Origin: Chloroflexota bacterium
GTDB taxonomy: Bacteria > Chloroflexota > Anaerolineae > B4-G1 > DUEL01
Direction of reading: 5' to 3'
Assembly: GCA_017743275.1 (NCBI GenBank)
Contig: JAGHZG010000143.1
Location: forward strand, 1 to 5,426
DNA length: 5,426 bases
The stretch's first letter is position 1, and each line of letters starts with the position of its first letter. The translations under genes and the position numbers were made by a program. A model generated the notes under the pieces. That model ran no database searches. It was not told where the DNA came from and worked only from the letters and a program-made list of their open reading frames with translations. Of this stretch, positions 477-5,415 are shown piece after piece.

Positions 477-1205
477 CTAATGGCCACCCTTATGGGCCGC
501 TTCCCGCTTTTTCGCCTCCCAGATTTCCATTGCCCGCTTGGGGCCGTAGTACCACTTCGCGTGGTGCACCATTGCGTACTCCGCCGACGTTACCCCGAAG
601 CGCATGCTCACCAGCCCGGCCCACATCAGGGGGTGCGCCACCGCCAGGTACAGATGGACCAGGAACATACAGACCGAGACGATCATCGCCAGGTCGTGGA
701 ACACCACCAGCCAGCGGAAGATCTCCGGCGGGATCACTCCCTTGCCAAACCACATCGGCACGCCGGTGATGCCGAAGACCGCCCAGGCGACAATCATCAC
801 CAGCCCGTTCATCTTCTCCCCGGCGTTGAAGCGGCCCTGGGGCGGCATCGCCTCGTGCCTGCCCAGCAGATAGTAGGCAGGGGCGGCCTTGAGCCAGCCG
901 AGGTCCTCCTTATTGGGCAGGAACTCCCGGATGTTCATCAGCAGCCGACGGGGCTCGAAGATGAAGTAGACAATGGGCAGGAGGCCGAAGATGACCGCGG
1001 CAACCCGGTGGACCAGCCGGATAAACAGGCCCGCCTCCCCCTGGGCCAGCGGCTCCAGGAACGGGAAGTAGAGGATCATCCCGGTAATGGCCAGCGGGAC
1101 GAAAGTGGCGGTATGAATCCAGTGGGCCGCCCGTTCCAGGGTGGTGTACTTGGGAATCCACTGAATCTGAATGACTTCCGGTCTGCCCTTCAGCTGGACG
1201 GTCAT
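477..1205 (-). CDS. FdnI/HyaC-type diheme cytochrome b, quinone-reducing membrane subunit
   Basis: This 242-residue integral membrane protein has four hydrophobic segments at roughly 31-48, 64-83, 133-151 and 164-190. Candidate heme ligands are H28, H66, H170 and H184. Their spacing (38 residues, then 14 between the last two) matches H18, H57, H155 and H169 of E. coli FdnI, the formate dehydrogenase-N cytochrome b. The RFNAGEKMN segment before the third helix is also typical of the FdnI family. It should take electrons from the adjacent four-cluster ferredoxin protein through two b hemes and reduce quinone near the inner side of the membrane. The C-terminal tail is basic and His-rich (AKKREAAHKGGH). 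The ATG overlaps the upstream TGA (ATGA at 1205-1202) and has GGAGG 7 bases upstream, supporting this start. Its resemblance is closer to FdnI than to HybB, which is a larger protein without heme. Confidence 0.92.
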   Translation of the reverse strand: MTVQLKGRPEVIQIQWIPKYTTLERAAHWIHTATFVPLAITGMILYFPFLEPLAQGEAGLFIRLVHRVAAVIFGLLPIVYFIFEPRRLLMNIREFLPNKEDLGWLKAAPAYYLLGRHEAMPPQGRFNAGEKMNGLVMIVAWAVFGITGVPMWFGKGVIPPEIFRWLVVFHDLAMIVSVCMFLVHLYLAVAHPLMWAGLVSMRFGVTSAEYAMVHHAKWYYGPKRAMEIWEAKKREAAHKGGH

Positions 1206-2110
1206 TTTACTTCCTCCATACGGATCTTACGGCGGACGAAGAGGAAGGTGCCCAGGATGCCCAGGAGCGCGGCGCCGAAGGCCACGTTGCCCAGCGGCTG
1301 GATGATCCTCTGCCAGGCCCGGGCAAAGGCCGGTGTCTTCGGCACAGAGGGCAGGCCGTACTCCTCTGGCTCACCCAGGAGGATGCTCAGCCGGCGCAGT
1401 CCTCCTGCCTCGTTCTCGCCGTAGATGCGGGCGTTTAGCCCCTGGGCCTGCAATTCCGCCACCCGGGCCCGTGCCCTATCCAGCAGGTCTCCCCGCTTGC
1501 CCCAGACCAGCGCGCCCACCGGGCAGACTTCCGCGCAGGACGGCCCGCCGATGCCGCTCCAGAGGCGGTCCTGGCAGAAAGTGCACTTGGCCGATTTTGC
1601 CTCCCCGGTGAGGAGATTGGCAACCTGCAGATGGGGGACGCCGTAGGGGCAGAACTGAGTACAGTAGCCGCAGCCGTTGCATTTCTGCCGGTCCAGGGCG
1701 ACGAACCCCAGCGGGTCGTGAAAGAGCGCGCGGGTCGGGCAAACCTCCACACAGGCGGCGTCGGTGCAGTGCATACACTGATAGTTGAAGAAATGCCACC
1801 CCACCTCGGTCCGCCGGAGTTTGATGATGTTCCAGGTGATAGCGGAGAGATCCCGCGGCGATTCGTAGATGCCCAGCGGGTCGGTGCTCTCGTTGGGCAG
1901 TTTGTTCCAGCGCTTACAGGCCATCTGGCAGGCCTTGCAGCCGACGCACTTGACCGGGTCGTAGAGGATGGCTACGTTGTCGGGAGAAGCGACGGAGGGT
2001 GCGGCTGCCGCCGCGCGGGCGCCAACCAGGGAGATGCCCAGCCCCAGCGCGGAGAGGCCCAGAAACTCCCGCCGATGGATCGCCAGTTTGGGAGATGGTC
2101 TGTTGTTCAT
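1202..2110 (-). CDS. Tat-exported ferredoxin-like subunit with four [4Fe-4S] clusters and C-terminal anchor (HybA/FdnH-like)
   Basis: This 302-residue protein begins with a Tat signal peptide: twin arginines R13-R14 in HRREFLGLS, then a hydrophobic stretch to about residue 37. Sixteen cysteines fall into four groups: C55/58/61/65, C112/115/120/124, C144/147/150/154 and C176/179/192/196. This is the FdnH/HybA arrangement of four [4Fe-4S] clusters. A single hydrophobic helix at about 272-292, followed by RRKIR, anchors it in the membrane, as in FdnH and HybA. It should form the periplasmic wire between the small subunit's distal cluster and the cytochrome b. Residues 211-232 form a short Arg/Ala-rich helix (DLLDRARARVAELQAQG). 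All cysteine codons here are TGC or TGT; the only TGA is the stop. The ATG overlaps the protease stop (ATGA at 2110-2107) and has GGAGG at 2123-2119. Confidence 0.95.
   Translation of the reverse strand: MNNRPSPKLAIHRREFLGLSALGLGISLVGARAAAAAPSVASPDNVAILYDPVKCVGCKACQMACKRWNKLPNESTDPLGIYESPRDLSAITWNIIKLRRTEVGWHFFNYQCMHCTDAACVEVCPTRALFHDPLGFVALDRQKCNGCGYCTQFCPYGVPHLQVANLLTGEAKSAKCTFCQDRLWSGIGGPSCAEVCPVGALVWGKRGDLLDRARARVAELQAQGLNARIYGENEAGGLRRLSILLGEPEEYGLPSVPKTPAFARAWQRIIQPLGNVAFGAALLGILGTFLFVRRKIRMEEVK
1213..1217 (-). promoter_or_regulatory. Ribosome-binding site of the cytochrome b gene
   Basis: GGAGG inside the end of the ferredoxin-like gene, 7 bases before the ATG at 1205. It supports the start that overlaps the upstream stop. 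Confidence 0.8.
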
Positions 2111-2592
2111 ATCTCACCCCTCCTGGTGGGTTGAATGCCCCACCGCTGTAGTTCCGCCAGAACGTTCTGGACCACGGTTTCCACCTGAGCGGCGACGGCA
2201 GGGGACAACTCCAGTCCCACTTCCAGGGAGGCTGGCTGGATGCCCCAGAGGATCAGTTCGGCGGGATATCGGCCCATCAGACGGGCCGCCGCCAGCAGGT
2301 CGCTCACCCCCATCTGATGGGGGGAATACTTCAGGTTCAGGACTGCGGGGACTTCCTCTCCCGCCAGCCGGGCCACCGTCCCCGGCGGGGCGTCCATCTG
2401 GACGGCGTCCACGATCAGCAGCCGGTCCGTATCCTCCACGTAGGGGAGCAGGTCCAGCCCCAGCGTCCCGCCGTCCAGGATTTCCACCTCCTGCGGGAAC
2501 TGATACCGTTCCCGCAGGAGGCGGACGACGTGGACACCCACGCCCTCGTCGCTCAGGAGAATGTTGCCCAGTCCCAGGACCAGCGTCTTCAC
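2107..2592 (-). CDS. HyaD/HybD-family hydrogenase maturation endopeptidase
   Basis: This 161-residue peptidase (HycI/HybD family, M52) cleaves the C-terminal extension of the large subunit once nickel is inserted. The N-terminal motif GLGNILLSDEGVG is diagnostic. The likely nickel-sensing residues are E16, D62 (LLIVDAVQ) and H92 (YSPHQ), matching E16, D62 and H93 of E. coli HybD. I choose the GTG at 2592 as start because it puts the beta strand KTLVLGLGN at the N-terminus and overlaps the large-subunit stop (GTGA). The longer frame from an upstream ATG at 2673 would add 27 residues that are an out-of-frame copy of the large-subunit C-terminus. No clear Shine-Dalgarno precedes the GTG, so translation probably depends on coupling to the large subunit. 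Its substrate here is presumably the adjacent large subunit, cut after H552. Confidence 0.94.
   Translation of the reverse strand: MKTLVLGLGNILLSDEGVGVHVVRLLRERYQFPQEVEILDGGTLGLDLLPYVEDTDRLLIVDAVQMDAPPGTVARLAGEEVPAVLNLKYSPHQMGVSDLLAAARLMGRYPAELILWGIQPASLEVGLELSPAVAAQVETVVQNVLAELQRWGIQPTRRGEI
2119..2123 (-). promoter_or_regulatory. Ribosome-binding site of the ferredoxin-like subunit
   Basis: GGAGG inside the end of the protease gene, 8 bases before the ATG at 2110. It supports the start that overlaps the protease stop. Confidence 0.8.
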
Positions 2593-4307
2593 AGGCAGGT
2601 CCAGTCGTTCAGGCGGATGCAGGTCACCTCCCGGCCGTGCGCGTCCAGGATGTGGACGCCACAGGCCATGCACGGGTCAAAGGAGTGGATGGTGCGCAGG
2701 ATTTCTATGGGCCGCTCCGGATCGGCGATGGGCGTCCCCACCAGGGCGGCCTCATAGGCCCCTGGCTGGCCCTTCGGGTCTCGCGGCGAGGAGTTCCAGG
2801 TGGAGGGAACCACGGCCTGGTAGTTGGCAATCTTGCCGTCCACGATGCGGACCCAATGGCCCAGCGCGCCCCGTGGGGCCTCGTGCCATCCCCAACCCTG
2901 GGCCTCCTTCGGCCAGGTGGCGGGATCCCACTTCTCTCCGTTGTGGATCTGGAGGTCGCCGCGGGCCATGTTTTCGGCCAGTTCGTCCACCCAGGCGTTC
3001 AGTTGCTCGGCGACCACCAGCGTTTCAATGCCGCGCGCCGCGGTGCGGCCCAGGGTGGAGAAGAGAGCCTCCGGTCCCACGCCCAGTTGCTTCAGCACCC
3101 CGTCCACCAGTTCCTTCACCCGCTTGTGGCCGGAGGCGTAGGCCACCAGCATTCGGGCCAGGGGGCCCACCTCCATCGGTTTATCGTCGTAGCGGGGGGC
3201 TTTCATCCAGGTGTACTTCCCGTCGGTGTCCAGGTACTGGTAGGGAGGCTTGGGGCCGGTGTAGTTGGGGGTCGTCTCCCCTTCCCACGGGTGTTTGGCC
3301 ACCCGGTCACCTTCGGCGTACTGATACCAGGAATGGGTCACGTACTCGGCGATCTTCTTCTGGTCCACCGGATAGACCTGGCTCAGGTCCCGGTTGAGAA
3401 TGACCCCCGAGGGGAGGAAGAGGTTGCCCGCCCGGTCGGGGTAGTCTCCGTAGGCCAGAAAGTTGCCCAACCCCTCGCCGATGGTGGTCCATTCATCCTT
3501 GTAGTAGGAGGCGATCGCCAGAAGGTCAGGGATGTAGACCTGCTGGACAAACTGGAGGGCCTTCGTGAAGAGCCGCTTCAGGAAGGCCAGTTTGTCGGCG
3601 TTCAGCGCGGTCTCGCTATCGGGATCCACGGGGATCGCCATGCCGCCCACCAGGTAGGTCTGGGGATGGGGGTTCTTGCCGCCCAGGATGGCATGGGCCC
3701 GGATGACATCCCGCTGCCAGTCCAGCGCCTCCAGGTAGTGGGCTACGGCCATCAGATTGGCCTCGGGGGGAAGTCGGTAGGCGGGGTGGCCCCAGTAGCC
3801 GTTGGCAAAGATACCCAGTTGGCCGCTGCGCACAAAGGCATCCAGTTTCCCCTTGAGGGTGCGGAAATAGTCGGGGCTGGAGTTGGGCCAGTCGGAGATG
3901 GACTGGGCCAGTTGCGCCGTCTTGTTGGGGTCCGCTTTCAGCGCGCTGACCACATCCACCCAGTCCAGGGCGTGGAGGTGATAGAAGTGGATGACGTGGT
4001 CCTGGACGTACTGAATACCGCCAATCAAGTTCCGGATGATCCGGGCATTATCCGGAATGAGAATTCCCAGGGCATTTTCTACGCTTCGCACGGAAGCGAC
4101 GGCATGCACCGTCGTTCAGACCCCTCATATCCGCTGGGCCATCAGCCAGGCCTCCCGGGGGTCGCGGCCTTTCAGGATGATCTCCAGTCCCCGAAACGCG
4201 GTGCTGGAAGCCCAGGCCTCAACAATCCGGCCGTCTTCCACCCGGGCCTCAATGCGCAGATGGCCCTCTATGCGAGTGATGGGATCAACCACGATTTTCT
4301 GGGCCAT
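2589..4307 (-). CDS. [NiFe] hydrogenase large subunit with two in-frame UGA codons at the L1 nickel ligands (candidate selenoprotein)
   Basis: This is the catalytic Ni-Fe subunit of a group 1 hydrogenase, 572 residues if the two internal TGAs are read through. The N-terminus VVDPITRIEGHLRIE carries the proton-path Glu E14. The L1 motif should be RxCGxCxxxH, but the codons at residues 61 (4127-4125) and 64 (4118-4116) are TGA, giving R59-I-UGA-G-V-UGA-TTVH68. The frame then continues without a break as AVASVRSVENALGI. The late motif EAPRGALGHW (476-485) contains R479, and L2 is DPCMACGVH with C546, C549 and H552. The positions 14, 61, 64, 479, 546 and 549 coincide with those I recall for E. 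coli Hyd-2 HybC, so there is no indel in the core. A 20-residue extension after H552 is left for the protease to remove. The protein would be co-exported with the Tat-bearing small subunit. Reading through as selenocysteine is the favoured interpretation; a UGA-reading Cys tRNA, a sequencing error or a pseudogene remain possible. Confidence 0.9.
4082..4114 (-). promoter_or_regulatory. Candidate bacterial SECIS: two tandem hairpins just after the UGA pair
   Basis: Hairpin 1 pairs 4114-4109 (CGACGG) with 4102-4097 (CCGTCG) around the loop TGCATG. Hairpin 2 pairs 4098-4093 (CGCTTC) with 4087-4082 (GAAGCG) around the loop CGTGC. They share two bases, so they either stack end to end with a slightly shortened stem or compete. 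In hairpin 2 the loop G (4091) follows 24 bases after UGA-64 and 33 after UGA-61. Bacterial SECIS apical loops usually sit about 16-37 bases downstream and expose a G, often GU, for SelB. Hairpin 1 has a loop G (4107) 17 bases after UGA-61 but only 8 after UGA-64. I did not see an obvious bulged U. The fold is judged by eye, not computed. Confidence 0.6.
4116..4127 (-). other. Double in-frame UGA (UGA-G-V-UGA) replacing the L1 CxxC
   Basis: Minus-strand codons from 4127 are TGA GGG GTC TGA. They replace the TGC/TGT codons of the almost invariant CGxC of L1. One residue is normally a terminal nickel ligand and the other bridges Ni and Fe. Flanking codons encode consensus hydrogenase on both sides and in the same frame, so this is neither a frameshift nor a gene boundary. 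Each change from TGC or TGT to TGA is a single third-base change. Confidence 0.88.
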
Positions 4308-4322: not shown

Positions 4323-5408
4323 TTATTCTTCCTTCTTGTACAGTTGGCTCACTGCCACCGCACCGGCCACACCAGCGGCCACGCCGACGGCGGCGCCGAT
4401 GACACCCGCCGTCACCGGGGACATGCCCTTTTCGGGCTCCACCTCGGGGTAAGTGGTGGGCGGCGTCAGGGCATGGATGGGGACGGGCTGGTACGCGGGC
4501 ATCTCCCAGAAGTTGGGGGCCGCGCAGGCGATACAACCGTGCCCGGCGCCCACGGGCCAACTGGTCCCCTCGTTCCAGCGGATAGAAGGACAGTTCATAA
4601 AGGCCACAGGCCCCTTGCAGCCCATCCGGTAGAGGCACCAGCCCTTGCGGTGGCCCTCGTCTCCCCAGGCCTCCACGAACTCTCCGGCATCAAAGTGGCC
4701 GCACCGTTCGCAGTTATCGTGAATACGGCGGCCGTGGGCGAAGAGGGGCCGGCCCAGGTCGTCCAGCGCAGGCAGTTCCTTAAAGGTGAGGTAGTGGACC
4801 ACCGCGGCGGTCAGGTTGTCCGCGTTCGGCGGACAACCGGGCAGATTGACGATGGGAACGCCAGAGATAATATCCTTTACCCCTTTGGCACCGGTGGGGT
4901 TCGGGGTGGTGGCCGGCCAGCCGCCGTAGAAGGCGCAGGCGCCCACGGTGATGATGGCCGCCGTATGGGCGGCAACCTCCCGGAGAATCTCCAACGCGGA
5001 GCGCCCTCCAATGCAGCAGTAGACCCCGTCGTCGGCGGTGGGGATGGCACCCTCCACAATAGTGAGGTAGCCACCCTCTTTGATGGTATCCTGGAGGGAC
5101 TTTTCAGCCGCATGGCCAGCGGGAGCCATAATGGTCTCGCTGTAGTTCAGGGAGAGGATGTCCAGCACCAGTTCGGCAACGGTGGGGCGGTTGGCCCGCA
5201 GGAGGGATTCGGTGCAGCCGGTGCAACCCTGGAATTCCAGCCACACTACGGCGGGGCGCCGGGCCGTCTCCAGCGCCCGGGCGATTTTGGCCGTCTGCTC
5301 CACCGGGAGGGCCAGGACACCAGCCATCATGGTGCAGAACTTCAGAAACTCCCGGCGGGTGATGCCCCGGACGGCCAGTTCTTCCGCTATGCTCATCGTG
5401 GGACTCAT
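4323..5408 (-). CDS. [NiFe] hydrogenase small subunit, Tat-exported and membrane-anchored (group 1)
   Basis: This 361-residue electron-transfer subunit carries three Fe-S clusters. A Tat signal occupies about residues 1-40 (ITRREFLKF, R18-R19, then a hydrophobic run). Ligands follow the D. gigas spacing: proximal C62, C65, C158, C192; distal H230, C233, C258, C264; medial C273, C292, C295, with P285 where a fourth Cys would make it a 4Fe cluster. Positions 64 and 163, which are Cys in oxygen-tolerant Hyd-1 types, are both Gly, so the proximal cluster should be ordinary [4Fe-4S]. The C-terminus has a Gly/Ala-rich membrane helix (about 332-354) followed by YKKEE, giving a membrane-bound, periplasm-facing enzyme. 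Extra cysteines at 131-132 and 236 have no assigned role. The ATG at 5408 is preferred over an overlapping TTG at 5411 because GGAGG lies 7 bases before it. All Cys codons here are normal. Confidence 0.96.
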   Translation of the reverse strand: MSPTMSIAEELAVRGITRREFLKFCTMMAGVLALPVEQTAKIARALETARRPAVVWLEFQGCTGCTESLLRANRPTVAELVLDILSLNYSETIMAPAGHAAEKSLQDTIKEGGYLTIVEGAIPTADDGVYCCIGGRSALEILREVAAHTAAIITVGACAFYGGWPATTPNPTGAKGVKDIISGVPIVNLPGCPPNADNLTAAVVHYLTFKELPALDDLGRPLFAHGRRIHDNCERCGHFDAGEFVEAWGDEGHRKGWCLYRMGCKGPVAFMNCPSIRWNEGTSWPVGAGHGCIACAAPNFWEMPAYQPVPIHALTPPTTYPEVEPEKGMSPVTAGVIGAAVGVAAGVAGAVAVSQLYKKEE

Positions 5409-5415
5409 CAAGGCA

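Follow-up and report, generated by a model that had tools for sequence, protein, structure and literature searches.

A hydrogenase large subunit with two in-frame UGA codons, predicted to encode selenocysteine, in its L1 nickel-binding motif

In [NiFe] hydrogenases, one cysteine of the L1 pair is a terminal ligand of the Ni-Fe site and the other a bridging one. Natural [NiFeSe] enzymes are described, in the portion of PMC13188914 available to us, as carrying one selenocysteine (Sec) in the alpha subunit and as being exclusive to sulfate reducers and methanogens. A first-pass annotation of the DNA studied here had stated that this Sec replaces the first cysteine of the L2 motif, in agreement with the excerpted text of PMC11212049, which puts Sec at the equivalent of C546. 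Sec has also been introduced artificially into the E. coli enzymes: Hyd-1 variants were reported by Evans 2021 (as cited in the accessible parts of PMC11212049 and PMC9961374), and Hyd-2 variants with a single Sec at position 61, 64, 546 or 549 were active, with H2 oxidation below native levels, C546U alone markedly changing the voltammetry (PMC11212049, same excerpt). A synthetic Ni-Fe model with an S2Se2 ligand set exists as well (PMC4510704). Within the titles and abstracts of the open-licence (CC0, CC BY, CC BY-SA) PMC literature, we recognised no report of a natural hydrogenase with Sec in L1.

Here we describe a gene whose L1 motif has UGA codons at both cysteine positions. The best reading of our data, which are sequence comparisons, is that it represents a variant of the [NiFeSe] enzymes that is both new and widespread, with Ni(Se2S2) as the predicted site and one SECIS element that would serve two UGAs.

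The large-subunit gene and its surroundings

The window, by which we mean the whole 5,426-nt stretch of DNA analysed, encodes on its minus strand the large subunit of a [NiFe] hydrogenase (2589..4307), assigned to PF00374 by a profile search (802.5 bits). Following a GGAGGT motif, its frame runs from an ATG start to a TGA stop (2591-2589) and spans 572 codons if read through two UGA codons; when 4307-2592 is translated with U written for TGA, the product has 572 residues and its L1 reads MAQRI-U-GV-U-TTVHAVASVR. UGA codon 61 (4125..4127, minus strand) occupies the first and UGA codon 64 (4116..4118, minus strand) the second L1 cysteine position, as placed by alignment with homologues and with the best solved relative, the structure from A. 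vinosum (3myr), which aligns without gaps over residues 1-103 and has Cys at 61 and 64. We predict Sec at both. The first-pass annotation had placed UGA at both L1 cysteine codons (4116..4127) within otherwise intact consensus, and this observation is confirmed: its coordinates are exact, codons 61 and 64 are both TGA, and the reading frame stays open and conserved to both sides of the pair. The L2 motif, DPCMACGVH (2652..2678, minus strand, codons 544-552), is ordinary as annotated, with Cys 546 and Cys 549 seen in the translation. The nickel ligand set of this subunit thus comprises two Cys and two UGA codons, not four Cys.

This arrangement sets the gene apart from the HysA type, for which the corresponding NCBIfam model (NF045518) scores 398 bits against a cut-off of 780, and whose defining Sec at the first L2 cysteine is absent from the window gene. 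Both L2 cysteines are likewise kept in the 20 UGA genes that we aligned by codon, and L2 is also Cys/Cys in the UGA genes among 80 of 587 listed contig relatives, leaving out L106. Residues E14, D103, P478, R479 and D544, which we take to be outer-shell residues of the Ni-Fe site, are invariant across 19 sequences. A predicted model superposes on 3myr with a TM score of 0.91 and 59% identity in the structure alignment; its mean pLDDT is 77.3, dropping below 50 at residues 60-62, and it adds little, the fold being already set by sequence identity.

The neighbouring genes, all on the minus strand, encode the partners of a respiratory uptake complex. They comprise a hydrogenase small subunit whose RRxFLK signal motif was read by eye (4323..5411; TIGR00391, 425.6 bits; also PF14720 and PF01058), a HyaD/HybD-type maturation endopeptidase (2107..2592; TIGR00140, 172.5 bits, above cut-off) whose GTG start overlaps the TGA stop of the large subunit, a 4Fe-4S electron-transfer subunit (1202..2110) that we call HybA-like, since its best NCBIfam match is HybA at 187.7 bits, below the equivalog cut-off of 263, and a b-type cytochrome membrane subunit (477..1205; PF01292, 76 bits). 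Apart from L1, the operon thus looks, from its predicted products, like that of an ordinary respiratory uptake hydrogenase. Adjoining it on the same strand, 79-465 encodes a stand-alone response regulator receiver protein, and a G+C-rich inverted repeat, seen by eye, lies at 20-50, where Rfam gives a sub-threshold hint (E 0.38).

Recurrence of the UGA pair in related genes

The first-pass annotation had proposed an alignment of codons 61 and 64 with homologues, and this shows Cys at both positions in some relatives and UGA at 64, and usually also at 61, in many others. Our homologue sets grew from 29 UGA and 72 Cys sequences to 36 and 78, and comprise 30 distinct UGA/UGA genes, six Cys/UGA genes changed at codon 64 only, and 78 Cys/Cys genes; none of these 30, 6 and 78 homologues has UGA at codon 61 only. 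By the titles of their records, double-UGA genes occur in Chloroflexota and Nitrospirota. Of 149 related genomes surveyed, 123 gave some match, and two internal TGA codons are present in most of the best full-length homologues. A codon alignment of 29 loci, from which L035 was left out because its N-terminus lies off the contig, consists of 19 TGA/TGA genes, one TGC/TGA gene and nine Cys/Cys genes. Among the nine Cys/Cys genes is one from the window's own genus (L012), at 89% identity.

Eighty of the 587 loci encoding a relative were compared in a named GTDB contig scan; nine of the 80 fell outside the regular expression, one of which (L100) begins after L1, and by eye L106 is Cys/UGA and the other seven are Cys/Cys. 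Among the matches listed, TGA/TGA is found in MAGs titled Nitrospirae (L079, L080, L083, L087, L091) and in BMS3Bbin08 (L093); Cys/TGA occurs in L101, from a Leptolinea bin, and in L106, whose record is titled deltaproteobacterium. Across 396 genomes of the window's class, a pattern covering all four states, strict enough that variant L1 motifs escape it, matched 59 times in 57 genomes (26 UGA/UGA, 5 Cys/UGA and 28 Cys/Cys), with UGA/Cys in 0 of the 59 matches. The UGA64 pattern was present in 3 of 400 genomes in a scan of the phylum, run with patterns other than UGA/Cys, suggesting that the trait is rare within the phylum outside the window's class. In two genomes, G094 (L029, L192) and G603 (C80, C337), a UGA/UGA large subunit occurs alongside a Cys/UGA one. 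A 3.3-kb contig titled Desulfurococcales archaeon (L099), possibly misbinned, encodes a hydrogenase of the Cys/Cys state that shares 69% identity with the query.

Genes of this kind appear to be truncated in protein databases. We searched the part of the protein following the UGA pair (506 aa) against 5.8 billion proteins and scored 8000 candidates. Of the best 120 of these 8000, 29 are full-length with RICGVC and 91 are without L1; these 91 start at V67 in 19 cases and at V73 in 68, with neither start matched in 4. The expectation that standard annotation would miscall the gene is thereby borne out, with 87 proteins beginning shortly after the two UGAs. Such proteins, which are known from protein records alone, are what a gene caller would be expected to produce from UGA genes, and the Sec reading, if true, would explain why L1 is absent from 91 of the best 120.

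The same missing L1, together with two stops inside the large-subunit frame under the standard code, is also what would be expected of a decaying pseudogene whose L1 was destroyed by two point mutations, or of an assembly error. The wider comparison leaves this explanation with a negligible probability. Thirty distinct sequences, which record titles assign to two phyla, share the pair, and as it recurs in independent assemblies of different projects, an assembly error is very unlikely. Moreover, codons 61 and 64 change to TGA in every case, with no TAA or TAG at either position in the loci read. The decay in relatives that the first-pass annotation had named as evidence against its own reading is not seen, since dN/dS between the window gene and eight relatives, including the Cys gene L012, is 0.06-0.19 both upstream and downstream of the pair (one upstream value was saturated). 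The covarying hairpin described below likewise argues against a gene in decay.

A SECIS-like hairpin and the selenocysteine machinery

Within the coding sequence that follows the UGA pair lies a SECIS-like hairpin (4082..4098, minus strand) of 6 bp with the loop CGUGC (4088-4092), for which covariation, a consensus fold and association with UGA genes all provide evidence. Counted from UGA64 and UGA61, the loop begins 23 and 32 nt downstream and the 5' base of the hairpin lies 17 and 26 nt downstream, respectively; across the UGA genes the loop reads CGUGC, CGUGA or GGUGA. In 29 distinct UGA sequences the six stem pairs are formed in 97.7% of cells, and three of the pairs vary on both sides (31 cells), which constitutes compensatory change. 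Stem covariation is 0.423 versus a mean of 0.128 in shuffled controls, which preserve no relatedness, and was reached in 0 of 500 shuffles; slid-partner controls for it fail. At the protein level, residues 71 and 75 co-vary as the stem requires, being mostly A..S, A..G, S..A or C..A. RNAalifold found the same hairpin unprompted, plus a weak 3-bp stem before it.

The hairpin follows UGA usage closely. All six pairs can form in 34 of 36 UGA genes versus 0 of 78 Cys genes in the larger homologue set (27 of 29 versus 0 of 72 in the smaller one), and a synonymous-codon null yielded the complete hairpin in a mean of 0.99 and a maximum of 6 of 29 genes over 2000 draws. By eye, L079 and L093, which have A..A at residues 71 and 75, keep four of six pairs in register, and a one-base bulge can restore their stem; the Cys/Cys gene L012 also has four of six pairs in register.

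The SECIS rules given in the available part of PMC13188914 ask for a loop of 3-9 nt, a stem of 4-16 bp, a G in the first two loop positions, a distance of 16-37 nt from the UGA and an energy of -7.5 kcal/mol or lower. With a 5-nt loop, 6 bp and distances of 23 and 32 nt, the hairpin agrees with the loop, stem, G and spacing rules; its energy is borderline, at -7.3 kcal/mol for a 27-nt core and -15.1 kcal/mol for 48 nt, and the folded length behind the -7.5 rule may differ from either. Folds of 48 nt contain the hairpin with a 5-nt loop in 20 of 20 UGA genes, and 27-nt folds prefer another register in 5 of 20. The U bulge of the fdhF SECIS element of E. coli has no counterpart in this stem. Rfam gave no match at the hairpin and two sub-threshold matches elsewhere in the window, the one mentioned above and another with E 1.1.

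Other UGA-containing genes of the source genome bracket these distances. Its SelD gene has a hairpin with the loop GUC 33 nt after the UGA, and a formate dehydrogenase (FDH)-like gene (L167) has a possible one, by eye, with the loop GGUCU 18 nt after the UGA; the minimum-energy fold of 52 nt of L167 favours another pairing, and the hairpin is the predicted fold in the genus-mates L166 and L168. As 23 and 32 nt fall between 18 nt in the FDH-like gene and 33 nt in SelD, one hairpin can serve both UGAs, and we infer that it actually does so.

The position of the hairpin also bears on whether the UGAs could be regulatory, with translation stopping at 61 and restarting at V67 or V73 to give a second, shortened product. 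The window does have GTG at codons 67 and 73, the very valines at which gene callers begin 19 and 68 of the L1-less proteins. Several UGA genes, however, have GTT or GTA at codon 67, so a V67 start is not conserved, and codon 73, although GTG in 29 of 29 rows, lies within the hairpin loop, whose G-U-G is invariant anyway. A product without L1 would be unlikely to hold a Ni-Fe centre, and the 60 codons upstream are under purifying selection. We therefore consider a regulatory restart very improbable.

A further feature of these genes is codon 60, directly before UGA61 (4128..4130, minus strand), which a codon comparison shows to be ATA in 30 of 30 UGA/UGA, 1 of 6 Cys/UGA and 2 of 78 Cys/Cys genes. 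Among the other Ile codons of 19 UGA/UGA genes, ATA makes up 5.8%. ATA also precedes the UGA in one FDH gene (L159), and was absent from this position in three other FDH-like genes and in motif-matched SelD genes.

On a rapid tree built from 112 large subunits (29 UGA/UGA, 6 Cys/UGA and 77 Cys/Cys; duplicates and short rows removed, SH-aLRT support only), the labels require 11 changes, and the six Cys/UGA genes require six. The Cys/Cys gene L012 falls inside a UGA/UGA clade, which points to a reversion to Cys. Since UGA/Cys was seen in neither the class scan nor the homologue set, a path in which the second position (64) changed first is plausible from the comparison of codons.

Decoding of UGA as Sec requires a dedicated machinery, and the first-pass annotation had suggested looking for its genes in the source genome (assembly of 2.26 Mb, 76.5% complete). 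Three components were found there: a tRNA-Sec with UCA anticodon (71.2 bits, above cut-off, also called tRNA-Sec by ARAGORN), SelB (348.8 bits, above cut-off) and SelD (335.2 bits, above cut-off, with an in-frame UGA of its own). SelA is represented by a C-terminal fragment only (27.2 bits), located 19 bases from a contig end, and scores above cut-off in six of six genus-mates. In-frame UGA codons are present in the SelD gene of the source genome (L186, G000:C255) as well as in its FDH-like gene L167 (G000:C425), whose family match of 152.9 bits is below cut-off. A tandem pair of SelD matches, with an in-frame TGA in each, was seen in another genome (L183, G048:C278).

Among 21 genomes of the class with a UGA gene, SelB is found in 17, SelA in 19, SelD in 18 and tRNA-Sec in 19, and at least three of the four in 19 of 21; five of 14 Cys-only genomes (G014, G062, G078, G110, G125) are without all four. 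These tallies count families above cut-off and tRNA-Sec above 60 bits, and come from 39 genomes, omitting G132, whose contig does not include L1, and G009-G011, which gave no close homologue, with G066 outside the SelD tally. Two genomes with UGA genes, G001 and G058, have only SelA above cut-off and tRNA-Sec matches of about 47-50 bits, a range in which three matches checked in the source genome are tRNA-Ser; G001 is 72% complete, and G058 has pieces of SelB below cut-off. Named loci led to 14 genomes, in which SelB scores above cut-off in 9 of 9 with UGA versus 3 of 5 with Cys.

UGA-decoding tRNAs other than tRNA-Sec exist in some bacteria, and a suppressor tRNA that reads UGA as Cys or another residue would yield an ordinary Cys enzyme, with a Cys residue suiting the site. 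Against such suppression, UGA is the terminal stop of three of the six window genes (large subunit, HyaD and Fe-S subunit), the SECIS-like hairpin follows UGA usage, the tRNA with UCA anticodon is called tRNA-Sec by ARAGORN (four loci scanned), and SelB and SelD are present. We give this explanation very little credence. Taken together, Cys in homologues, conservation of UGA, Sec machinery and a covarying hairpin support the double-Sec hydrogenase proposed by the first-pass annotation, and from them we infer selenium in the protein.

Proposed mode of action and comparison with known hydrogenases

The gene very probably encodes a [NiFe] large subunit in which both L1 UGAs are read as Sec by SelB and tRNA-Sec under the direction of one SECIS-like hairpin, as indicated by the recurrence of the pair in relatives from two phyla together with a conserved hairpin. 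The ribosome would insert Sec at 61 and then at 64, with the hairpin still ahead of it. After folding, Ni would be bound by two Se ligands of L1, one terminal and the other bridging, and by the S atoms of two L2 cysteines; cleavage of the C-terminal tail would fall to the endopeptidase encoded next to the subunit, in the manner of ordinary [NiFe] enzymes. A full-length subunit could be made only with selenium, since failure at either UGA would leave a fragment of 60 or 63 residues. By analogy with single-Se enzymes, the likely benefit might be an easier reversal of oxidative damage or an altered handling of protons; the engineered Hyd-2 Sec variants give no firm ground for such a benefit from Se in L1, as they fell below native and C546U was the only one to alter the voltammetry markedly.

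More broadly, we think it likely that these genes form a widespread natural Se2S2 class, in which both L1 cysteines are replaced by Sec, one SECIS drives two UGAs nine nt apart, the stem dictates residues 71 and 75, and an AUA before the first UGA is obligatory. This class may have evolved with the bridging position first, and could revert to Cys/Cys, as in the window's genus. If true, this would give a compact example of two UGAs that a single bacterial SECIS probably serves, and close natural relatives with Cys/Cys, Cys/Sec and Sec/Sec would allow a direct test of Se at each ligand position.

Of the known systems, ordinary [NiFe] hydrogenases of the uptake type (A. vinosum 3myr, E. coli Hyd-1 and Hyd-2) share similar partner subunits and, for 3myr, the 59% identity noted above; they have RICGVC, whereas the window gene has RIUGVU and a SECIS-like hairpin inside its coding sequence. 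In engineered E. coli Hyd-1 and Hyd-2, all four cysteines that bind Ni have in turn been exchanged for Sec, among them those at 61 and 64 in L1 of Hyd-2, yet according to the excerpt of PMC11212049 these are man-made variants with a single Sec each, introduced via UAG. Close UGAs encoding two Sec are found in UxxU selenoproteins (Prx-like, mercuric-reductase-like and FmdB-like), which the consulted part of PMC13188914 places in other families, not hydrogenases. The methanogen Vhu/Fru [NiFeSe] enzymes are Sec hydrogenases too, but their alpha subunit has UxxC with one Sec (PMC13188914, motif also in PMC9312934, both in part), and their multiple Sec residues are in the delta subunit FrhD/VhuD (PMC13188914, same portion). 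Finally, HysAB [NiFeSe] of sulfate reducers (NF045518; PDB 5jsh, 1cc1) shares with the window gene the large-subunit family and a UGA-encoded Sec as Ni ligand; its one Sec is at the first L2 position (PMC11212049, as excerpted), whereas the window gene has Cys at both L2 positions and predicted Sec at both L1 positions, the one corresponding to a metal-bridging ligand included. If this prediction is true, the enzyme would have a natural Ni-Fe centre with two Se ligands, one of them metal-bridging, compared with the one L2 Se of the [NiFeSe] hydrogenases reported in the literature available to us.
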